A stretch of DNA of 5,214 bases from an uncultured Gemmatimonadota bacterium. GTDB taxonomy: Bacteria; Gemmatimonadota; Gemmatimonadetes; Gemmatimonadales; Gemmatimonadaceae. Below, piece after piece: positions 3,234 to 5,214 of the stretch. Made by a program: the position numbers and the translations under genes. Positions within the stretch are counted from its first letter, which is position 1. Each line of letters begins with the position of its first letter. The stretch is from positions 1 through 5,214 of the forward strand of contig CAMPKM010000252.1 of assembly GCA_946887155.1 (NCBI GenBank), given 5' to 3'. Below the pieces are notes generated by a model, which saw only the letters and a program-made list of their open reading frames with translations, made no database searches and was not told where the DNA came from.

Positions 3234-3974
3234 ATGGCTCACCTCGCCCGCCACGACGCCCTGTTGCTGCAGCAGGTCGGCGGCCAGACTGTCGTCTACG
3301 ACCAGAGGAACCGGCGGCTTCATGTCTTGAGCCGGACTGCCGCGCTGGTCTGGCAACACTGCGATGGCCAGCGCGACGTTGCGCAGCTTGTCGAGGTCGT
3401 TGGCCAGGTGCTGGATGCCCCGATAAGTGAGGAAGTGATTCTCCTGGCACTCGGTCAACTCGAGGAAGCCGTCCTCCTCGCGGCGCCACAGAGGCCAACA
3501 CGACCTGCGGATGCCGTCTCACGGCGTGACATGGTGAACCGCGTTCTTGGTGGTCTTGCTGCTGGCGTGCTGCTGCCCGTCGTCACGTCGTGTGGCTCCA
3601 TCGTTGAACCGGTGATTGGGGCGGTAAGCAGAAACGATGTCCCCGTCACGACGACGACAAGCACGACTGGAACCACGCCCCTCGTGACCACGACCAGTAC
3701 CACGGGAACGACTCCGCTCACTACCACGACCACCAGTACCACTGGCACCACGCCACTCAATACCACGACCACCAGCACGACGGCAACGACTCCGCTTGTT
3801 ACCACCACGACGAGTACGACCGGTACGACGACCACGAGCACAACGTCGACCACGACAACCATACCGCCCAAAAAGGTGGTGATGTGCCACAACGGACAGA
3901 CCATCAAGGTCGACGCGCGCGCCGTCGCCGTCCACCTTGCCCATGGCGACACGCTCGGCCCCTGTCAGGACTGA
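3234..3974 (+). CDS. PqqD-like (RRE) domain fused to a Thr-rich lipoprotein-like tail with a Cys/His C-terminus
   Basis: This 246-residue protein is a mosaic. Residues 5-84 resemble the PqqD family, the winged-helix fold that binds precursor peptides as a RiPP recognition element: LLLQQVGGQTVVYDQRNRRL, then HVLSRTAALVWQHCDG, then DVAQLVEVV and the final helix ILLALGQLEEAVLL. Residues 96-120 read as SRRDMVN, a hydrophobic stretch (GGLAAGVLLPVV) and TSCG: a twin-arginine-like motif followed by the lipobox VTSC with C120. Residues 139-209 are a Thr-rich low-complexity tail with about 48 Thr and 7 Ser by my count. Residues 214-246 form a small motif (MCHNGQTIKVDA, HLAHGDTLGPC) of a kind found at the ends of some secreted proteins, with C218, H219, H234, H237 and C244. 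The ATG at 3234 is the first start after an in-frame stop at 3207-3209, but only a weak GGA (3223-3225) precedes it, so translation may be low or controlled. An internal start at 3531 (M100) would give a plain lipoprotein without the PqqD part. An intrinsic terminator follows, then a glycosyltransferase. The domain calls are from pattern reading; the molecular role is unknown. Confidence 0.8.
   Translation: MAHLARHDALLLQQVGGQTVVYDQRNRRLHVLSRTAALVWQHCDGQRDVAQLVEVVGQVLDAPISEEVILLALGQLEEAVLLAAPQRPTRPADAVSRRDMVNRVLGGLAAGVLLPVVTSCGSIVEPVIGAVSRNDVPVTTTTSTTGTTPLVTTTSTTGTTPLTTTTTSTTGTTPLNTTTTSTTATTPLVTTTTSTTGTTTTSTTSTTTTIPPKKVVMCHNGQTIKVDARAVAVHLAHGDTLGPCQD
3645..3860 (+). repeat. Thr-rich coding repeat, units of 12-13 codons
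   Basis: The stretch encodes residues 138-209 of the preceding gene. Four units end in TTPL: 138-150, 151-162, 163-175 and 176-188, with the common pattern TTTSTTGTTPL (Ala replaces Gly in unit 4). A fifth unit begins at 189 and dissolves into TTTTSTTSTTTT. Threonine codons vary freely among ACG, ACC, ACA and ACT between units, so the peptide is better conserved than the DNA. The pattern fits an extended, O-glycosylated or wall-spanning stalk. The long Val-rich open frames on the opposite strand are a by-product. Confidence 0.92.
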
Positions 3975-4120: not shown

Positions 4121-5214
4121 GTGAAGAGCCTGACCATCGGGATGGCGACCTTCAATGATTTCGATGGCGTGTACTTCACGCTTCAGTCATTGCGCCTCTA
4201 TCACGACATGAGCGATGTGGAGCTGCTGGTCGTGGACAACTTTGGCTGTGAGCACACCAGGAGCCTTGTCGAAGGTTGGGGTGCCGGCAGGTACGTGCGA
4301 CGCACCGAGGTTCAGGGAACGGCTGCCCCCAGAAATCTCGTGTTCGAGGAAGCCACGGGTGACATGGTCGTCTGCTGCGATTCCCATGTGCTCTTTCCAC
4401 CGGGTGTGGTGGCGCGACTACAGGCCTTCGCGACGCAGCACCCTGATTGCGACGACCTGCTTCAGGGTCCGATGTTATACGACGACCTGCAGGCGATCTC
4501 GACGCATCTTGAACCGGAGTGGCGAGAGGAGTTCTGGGGGACGTGGGCCACTGATCCGCGTGGCCACGATCCGGAGCATGAACCATTCGAGATACCGATG
4601 CAGGGGCTCGGCGCTTTTGCCTGTCGCAAGCGGGCATGGCTTGGATTCAATCCGCGCTTTCGCGGTTTCGGCGGTGAAGAAGGATACATCCACGAGAAGT
4701 TTCGTCAGGCCGGACGCCGGACGCTGTGCCTTCCGTGGTTCCGGTGGTTGCACCGATTCGGCAGGCCGTCAGGCGTTCCGTACACGCTGACCGTCGACGA
4801 CAAGTTCAGGAACTACATGATTGGTCACGCCGAGCTCGGGCTCGATCTCGCGAAGCCGATCGAACATTTTTCCGCGCGGCTGTCACAGGAGCGGATCGTC
4901 GCAATCGCCACCGAGGCCATCTGGGGCGTCGGGATGCACGAACTGACGGCGCCACTCGCTGGAGAAGGCGCTCCGCTTCCTCCAACACCCGCCCCAACCG
5001 TCCCGGAAGCTGCAACAGTGGTCGTTGCGGTTGAACGGCCGGCACAGCGTCGGGCGCTCGTGTGCTTTGTCGATGACCGGCTGGACATCATCCAGCAGTC
5101 GCTGGCACTGCGCCAGTCGTGGTTACACGTCCAGAGCCCCGACACAGACCTCGTAATGATGGGTCCCGAGGACGTCGGAACTAAGCCTCACGGACGCGTG
5201 GTCTGGGTTCGCAT
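4121..5214 (+). CDS. Family-2-like glycosyltransferase with DxH motif, plus start of a second domain (runs off right edge)
   Basis: The visible 364 codons stay in one uninterrupted frame to the window edge. Residues 1-130 are a GT-A nucleotide-sugar-binding half: SLTIGMATFND, LRLYHDMSDVELLVVDN with D39, the GTAAPRNLVFEEATGD segment, and CCDSHVLF, where D87-S88-H89 takes the place of the usual DxD metal motif. A DxH is typical of polypeptide GalNAc-transferases. Residues 165-213 give the acceptor side: IPMQGLGAFACRKRAW, GFGGEEGYIHEKFRQ (184-187 GGEE) and CLPWFRWLHRF, with H211 as a possible metal ligand; this recalls the GGEN or GWGGED motifs of GalNAc- and galactosyltransferases. After a helical segment comes a Pro/Ala-rich linker (about 278-305), then RRALVCFVDDRLDIIQQSLA at 310 onward, which looks like the first strand and helix of a second Rossmann or GT-like domain. 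No signal peptide or membrane segment is seen, so it probably acts in the cytoplasm. Sugar donor and acceptor are unknown; the upstream Thr-rich protein is a candidate acceptor by position only. Confidence 0.85.
   Translation, partial: MKSLTIGMATFNDFDGVYFTLQSLRLYHDMSDVELLVVDNFGCEHTRSLVEGWGAGRYVRRTEVQGTAAPRNLVFEEATGDMVVCCDSHVLFPPGVVARLQAFATQHPDCDDLLQGPMLYDDLQAISTHLEPEWREEFWGTWATDPRGHDPEHEPFEIPMQGLGAFACRKRAWLGFNPRFRGFGGEEGYIHEKFRQAGRRTLCLPWFRWLHRFGRPSGVPYTLTVDDKFRNYMIGHAELGLDLAKPIEHFSARLSQERIVAIATEAIWGVGMHELTAPLAGEGAPLPPTPAPTVPEAATVVVAVERPAQRRALVCFVDDRLDIIQQSLALRQSWLHVQSPDTDLVMMGPEDVGTKPHGRVVWVR

Follow-up and report, generated by a model that had tools for sequence, protein, structure and literature searches.

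A PqqD-type recognition domain joined to a putatively exported Thr-rich tail and encoded beside a glycosyltransferase of predicted GalNAc-transferase fold: a possible bacterial route to mucin-type glycosylation

The gene considered here lies at positions 3234..3974 on the forward strand of a 5,214-nucleotide stretch of DNA from an uncultured Gemmatimonadota bacterium (assembly GCA_946887155.1, contig CAMPKM010000252.1), the whole of which will be referred to as the window. It encodes a protein of 246 residues in which a domain of the PqqD type, also called a RiPP (ribosomally synthesised and post-translationally modified peptide) recognition element or RRE, is followed in the same chain by a putative twin-Arg signal, a Thr-rich stalk and a small C-terminal module with the pattern CH...HGD..GPC; to judge from its sequence, it looks like an exported Thr-rich surface protein bearing at its front a peptide-recognition domain of the sort usual on peptide-modifying enzymes. 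The adjoining gene on the same strand encodes a glycosyltransferase (GT) with a DxH metal motif. The reading favoured here, to which a probability of roughly one half may be attached, is that the RRE recruits this GT in cis to the Thr-rich tail before export, and that the RRE is subsequently cut off, leaving the tail anchored to lipid.

That the N-terminus is a PqqD/RRE domain had been put forward in an original prediction from pattern reading, and this has been borne out. In profile searches PF05402 scores 28.5 bits on the 246-residue open reading frame (ORF), above its cut-off of 23.4, and in the AlphaFold2 model residues 1-84 (3234..3485) have a predicted βββ-ααα fold for which, using Foldseek and VIA comparison, solved RREs are the nearest structures. 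The domain is not a true PqqD of PQQ synthesis, since TIGR03859 reaches only 16.1 bits against an equivalog cut-off of 46, and in the window protein the model for the HPr-rel-A PqqD chaperone (TIGR04353) is also below its equivalog cut-off, at 14.3 bits against 35; searching PDB sequences with a profile made from the alignment described below (A1) gave weak matches only (3g2b, E 0.76). About 12 residues past the end of the RRE there begins a putative internal lipoprotein signal of the twin-arginine translocation (Tat) type, spanning residues 96-120 (3519..3593) and consisting of R97 and R98, a hydrophobic stretch at approximately 104-119 and a lipobox-like sequence, V-T-S-C120. A lipobox has the pattern [LVI][ASTVI][GAS]C. 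Beyond it lies the mucin-like stalk (residues 136-209, 3639..3860), in which 48 of the 74 residues are Thr; an origin of this tail as a DNA repeat artefact was ruled out by its mixed Thr codons and by the drift seen among relatives. In the model, residues 86-95 and 110-199 have a predicted confidence (pLDDT) below 50.

Thirty-six relatives of the protein were found, 23 having 220-278 residues and 13 having 159-169. Alignment A1 contains 20 rows, one for the window protein and the others for 19 of the long relatives; it omits P0002, which is nearly identical to the window protein, as well as P0011, P0013 and P0024, each of which equals an included row in length and score, while the row for P0022 is without its first residues. 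In every one of the 20 rows the RRE, the RR pair, an invariant T-S-C-G (T118, S119, C120, G121), the Thr-rich stalk and the C-terminal module occur in that order, so that the succession of parts expected to recur among homologues does so, and the two halves, which might have proved always to be separate genes, form one chain in the window protein and 19 relatives. R97 and R98 are invariant ahead of the hydrophobic stretch, V/I-T-S-C is present in all rows, and the invariant residues of the RRE comprise L29-H30-V31-L32, W40, C43, G45, L81 and L82. The stalk, in contrast, drifts, varying in both length and sequence (the Thr fraction of the tail ranges from 0.41 to 0.58). The 13 shorter relatives also have the RRE and the RR segment, together with a site of A-x-A-like type, and end in a Cys-rich stretch.

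Scanning genomes with the window protein alone found nothing, while scanning with the alignment gave 51 loci, among them one full-length relative (L001), in which the two tail modules have changed places and the lipobox is replaced by an A-x-A-like site. Of 149 genomes in the phylum of G002, 19 gave a match (best E 5.3e-11), in no case a full-length one, and a profile of the RRE plus signal had no match in eight genomes of other loci. Much of what such scans detect is the C-terminal module (residues 214-244, 3873..3965): 42 of the 51 loci were matched from residue 200 onward only, as were, in their C-terminal part only, all five loci from a viral scan. The module, predicted to be ββα with invariant Cys, His and Asp residues, occurs at the 51 genome loci across many phyla (by record titles Bacteroidota, Planctomycetota, Patescibacteria, archaea and others), and no Pfam model reached it in the window protein. 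The idea that it is specific to the RRE-Thr family was rejected because it is widespread at other loci, and for the same reason it is uninformative about the RRE.

The GT gene occupies 4121..5212 (+), its start being taken from relatives P0038 and P0039, and matches PF00535 at 51.9 bits. Its catalytic domain (residues 1-270, 4121..4930) has a predicted GT-A fold nearest to structures of GT27, the polypeptide GalNAc-transferases, with approximately 16% identity in the structural alignment. The DxH motif, D87-S88-H89 (4379..4387), is invariant in the 20 rows of GT alignment A4, and CD[SCA]H is found in 119 of the 120 GT relatives listed out of 4083; H211 (4751..4753), a C-terminal His that is a candidate third metal ligand, is invariant in alignments A3 and A4. 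DxH stands in place of DxD in the polypeptide Ser/Thr O-glycosyltransferases of GT27 and GT60 (PMC7185993). The nearest complete relatives add a second domain, DUF7164 (PF23741; 160.9 bits in P0038, 171.9 in P0056), of which the start can be recognised by eye at 5051..5212 by comparison with P0038 and P0056. Among nine GT relatives scanned, PF00535 was accompanied by DUF7164, PqqD, MauE or AhpC-TSA or by no second Pfam family, and a ricin-type lectin domain was present in none. Fusion to PqqD was seen in four of the 120 listed relatives (two were checked, at 38.0 and 39.2 bits); with the RRE attached to the GT there and to the presumed substrate in the window protein, the arrangement suggests that this domain can reside on enzyme or substrate alike.

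Two further observations concern the partners of the GT. DUF7164 is found fused to it or beside it (L162:10606-11565, 163.3 bits; C-terminal half of P0038), has a conserved RTDVDTF stretch and could be another sugar transferase. Domains of the MauE and AhpC/redoxin kinds occur either in one chain with the GT or in the vicinity of Cys-rich proteins with RR signals (P0115, P0142, P0148; L077:8047-9609, L164:4516-6018, L168:10506-12509), as though disulfide formation and the addition of sugars were parts of a common maturation pathway.

Because the neighbouring GT is predicted to resemble the enzymes that initiate animal mucin glycosylation, the arrangement suggests a bacterial mucin-type sugar-coating system. 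In such a system the N-terminal RRE (residues 1-84) would stay in the cytoplasm and act as a docking leader in cis, while the internal signal (residues 96-120) would export the remainder, probably by Tat, allowing modification before transport. The substrate would be the stalk together with the small C-terminal module, and the RRE would recruit to it the adjacent DxH enzyme, a putative counterpart of the polypeptide GalNAc-transferases; this would glycosylate Thr and Ser of the stalk, and its DUF7164 region may then extend the sugar. Sugar nucleotides are cytoplasmic and the GT has no evident signal, which is why modification is placed before export. Following export, cleavage at Cys120 would remove the RRE along with the signal and leave the glycosylated stalk as a lipid-anchored surface mucin; the lipobox thus suggests a leader removal like that of RiPP precursors, and if V-T-S-C does release the RRE then this domain would be a removable, folded leader in cis and not a permanent cytoplasmic end. 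The original prediction had proposed, without noting the likeness of the signal segment to a lipobox, that a modifying enzyme is recruited in cis before the tail is exported. It finds partial support: a candidate enzyme has materialised in the adjacent gene, with its predicted fold and DxH motif, and the RRE-GT fusions and the split genes described below point in the same direction. The conserved domain architecture, the adjacency of the genes, the predicted GT fold with its metal motif and the occurrence in other phyla are observed; contact of the RRE with the GT, glycosylation of the stalk, export by Tat and cleavage are the inferred steps.

Evidence that the GT accompanies Thr-tailed RRE proteins beyond the window comes from several sources. 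For four of the 23 long relatives the longest contig is equal in size to that of a listed GT relative (P0007/P0039, P0014/P0047, P0021/P0056 and P0022/P0043, the last from a record named Gemmatimonas by NCBI), where a jitter null gives a mean of 0.38 (P 6.5e-4); the corresponding figure for the Cys-tail relatives is zero of 13. In Acidobacteriota just one of 247 genomes, G465, has the GT (E <= 1e-30), and there both RRE fusions have Thr-bearing tails and lie directly downstream of GT copies, some 90 and 70 bases away; the GT frames at these two loci, L157 and L158, were read directly, and the order at L157 is NTP_transf_5, HprK-like, GT, RRE-Thr. The other Acidobacteriota fusions read have Cys-rich tails (L141 being almost tail-less) and come from genomes outside the GT hits. 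The link between GT and Thr tail in G465 is specific. In Chloroflexota the GT was found in three of 301 sampled genomes and in three of 61 from one order (both at E <= 1e-40), making four genomes in total. In G256 the gene just before it encodes a protein with an RR signal and with segments rich in Thr and Cys, and another protein of this kind is encoded three genes further downstream, past DUF7164; in G744 its immediate neighbour is a Cys-rich protein with an RR signal, a MauE-AhpC gene being close by; in G183 it adjoins MauE-AhpC; and the Thr-tail fusion that G001 also has is encoded on a different contig from the GT, which it does not precede. Over the seven GT loci read, a gene with an RR signal (recognised by eye) adjoins the GT in five (the window, L157, L158, L162 and L168), and in three of these five the RRE is in cis.

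The Thr-tailed proteins form part of a wider class, recurring in Chloroflexota and Acidobacteriota, in which an RRE and an RR signal precede a tail rich in Cys, Gly or Thr. The A1 profile matched 29 of the 301 Chloroflexota genomes (E <= 0.001) and the RRE+signal profile 74 of the 247 Acidobacteriota genomes, many of these matches being in the RRE only; 43 fused ORFs at 39 loci in the two phyla were read, or 44 with L001. An RR pair is present in 41 of the 43, the exceptions being L078 and L082:11646-12224. Tails with at least 8 Thr in 20 residues number three (L001, L084 and L157), while in two proteins of G073 (L080:7370-8560 and L081:6651-7796) the RRE precedes a signal of Tat-like appearance, NRRQFLK or SRRQLLK, and an extended tail rich in Gly. 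When a tail is counted as Cys-rich if four or more Cys fall within 40 residues, the number of Cys is even in 36 of 36 or 33 of 35 such tails, depending on where the tail is assumed to start, as expected of disulfide-bonded domains.

At two loci, counted as a single operon type because they share other neighbours as well, separate genes follow one another for a Tat-signal protein, a stand-alone PqqD, an HprK-related kinase and NTP_transf_5 (L085:6611-9358 and L086:7803-10529); the Tat-signal protein of L085 passes TIGR01409 at 22.9 bits against a cut-off of 16.7. What is one chain in the class of the window protein is two genes here. As separate observations, RRE + RR-signal proteins with short Cys-rich tails at L130-L156 and L075-L083 form a large class, often beside HprK-related and NTP_transf_5 genes, L142 has three tandem RRE-Cys paralogues, one ORF next to an RRE-Cys fusion (L075:10111-11502) combines an AhpC/TSA domain with an HprK-related part, and at L089:2904-4250 an RRE-like domain is fused, by eye, to a Memo-like protein, a fusion that also appears in the 2025 RRE survey (PMC12710340).

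A number of points weigh against the reading in which the RRE directs the GT. No Pfam or NCBIfam Tat model matches the window protein at E <= 1 (in relative P0021 a Tat model reaches 13.0 bits, against a cut-off of 22.7). The GT family is large, with its 4083 relatives, the window ends inside the GT gene, and among nine PDB matches to the GT sequence profile at E <= 1 there is no GalNAc-transferase. Contigs of equal size are an indirect sign of adjacency to the GT. Two of the seven GT loci have no RR-signal neighbour, one being L163 (G001, on a 5.7-kb contig with a nuclease-like gene upstream) and the other L164, where MauE-AhpC adjoins; G744 has the GT with no RRE fusion detected; G164, assumed to be within the 301 sampled, carries an RRE fusion with TP repeats yet gave no GT hit at the threshold applied. 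At L158 the tail is short, and its enrichment in Thr is modest (6 Thr in 20). Finally, most of the wider class has neither Thr tail nor GT, with Cys-rich tails in 36 of 44 RRE fusions, 33 of them in genomes without the GT.

The least improbable alternative, though still unlikely, is that the RRE serves the HprK-related kinase and NTP_transf_5 and not the GT, so that tail hydroxyls would be phosphorylated and then glycosylated through the phosphate, the GT acting later or on another target. Using dedicated profiles for the two families, seeded from clusters that were partly checked, and taking genes within 3 kb of the 43 RRE fusions, HprK-related genes were found at 29, NTP_transf_5 at 22, either at 32 and both at 19 (E <= 1e-15; at E <= 1e-5 the figures are 29, 23, 32 and 20). 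These genes beside Cys-tail relatives recall the lasso peptide pairs, where one partner, a homologue of HPr kinase, phosphorylates Ser and the other, a nucleotidyltransferase, attaches hexose (PMC8498205), and the consecutive genes of L085 and L086 fit with such a role. Against this, no HprK or NTP_transf_5 gene is present within the window (genes beyond it being out of view), and GT relatives with their own RRE tie RREs directly to the GT. A broader formulation would accommodate both sets of genes, with mucin-type O-glycosylation relying on a removable, substrate-borne RRE leader that docks the DxH GT before Tat export, and the same in-cis principle extending to a wider family of exported tails, rich in Cys, Gly or Thr, on which kinase and nucleotidyltransferase pairs would act; it is offered tentatively, at somewhat less than even odds.

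It is improbable that the RRE is a relic without a present role, in an ordinary Thr-rich lipoprotein next to a capsule enzyme: several RRE fusions do have neighbours that resemble, by eye, genes for exopolysaccharides, but the invariant RRE residues of A1 given above have been kept while the stalk drifts, and the specific link between GT and Thr tail in G465 also speaks against it. About as improbable is the notion of an export gate, in which the RRE would recruit no enzyme but bind in cis either the RR signal or the stalk, much as a Tat proofreading chaperone might; no more than about 12 residues separate the RRE from the signal, and RREs bind peptides via strand addition (PMC7470986), but the model lends no support, with the relevant segments in its low-confidence regions, and RREs fused to the GT would be left unexplained. 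A transmembrane regulator of the ToxR type, with a winged-helix DNA-binding domain inside and a sensory stalk outside, is very improbable, as its structural rank is weaker than that of the RREs.

Upstream in the window are genes for a SnoaL-like protein (516-905) and an L,D-transpeptidase (YkuD + Scaffold + PG-binding, 1104-2888), which give no sign of belonging to the RRE/GT system.

If docking of the GT by an in-cis RRE is correct, RREs would direct the modification of exported surface proteins and not only of small-peptide natural products, the recognition domain having moved from enzyme to substrate, and bacteria would have, in their cytoplasm, an equivalent of the mucin O-glycosylation of animals, with the address built in. 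An RRE followed by an RR signal would then be a handle for finding many unstudied secreted proteins and their modifying enzymes, and the HprK-related, NTP_transf_5 and DUF7164 genes would acquire a concrete, testable role.

As regards known systems, the βββ-ααα fold is common to the window protein and to established PqqD/RREs (PF05402; TbiB1, lasso B1, the N-domains of TruD and LynD), the difference being that here it is fused to an exported tail, its presumed substrate. RREs have been described either as free-standing proteins or as parts of fusions, for the most part with biosynthetic domains (PMC7470986, PMC12710340); the 2025 survey (PMC12710340) includes fusions to uncharacterised domains, and proteins like that of the window may lie unnamed in its data. 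In a literature search restricted to openly accessible text, subscription papers being outside its scope, no published case came to light in which an exported substrate carries an RRE, and none with a partner resembling the GalNAc-transferases. Like GT27 and GT60, the window GT combines a predicted GT-A fold nearest GT27 with DxH, a conserved C-terminal His and an adjacent Thr-rich acceptor; it differs in its low identity, in having no PDB sequence-profile match to GalNAc-transferases, and in the partner domains of its relatives, which are DUF7164, RRE, MauE, redoxin or (by eye) GT25-like, with no lectin in the nine scanned. The HPr-rel-A cassettes (TIGR04352, TIGR04353) and the lasso kinase/nucleotidyltransferase pairs resemble the wider class in setting a PqqD-family domain beside HprK-related and NTP_transf_5 proteins, whereas in the wider class the HprK-related proteins score only 41.8-91.8 bits against a cut-off of 200 and PqqD is fused to an exported protein; in the window itself HprK and NTP_transf_5 are not seen. 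In borosins enzyme and substrate are fused in one chain, so that both there and here a maturation part and a substrate share a single polypeptide, but it is the enzyme itself that is fused in borosins and only a recognition domain here. The folded RiPP leaders of nitrile-hydratase-like type (PMC12455567) likewise place a long folded N-terminal domain, recognisable as a protein surface, before the modified part, whereas in the present case the leader itself has the RRE fold and is followed by an export signal.
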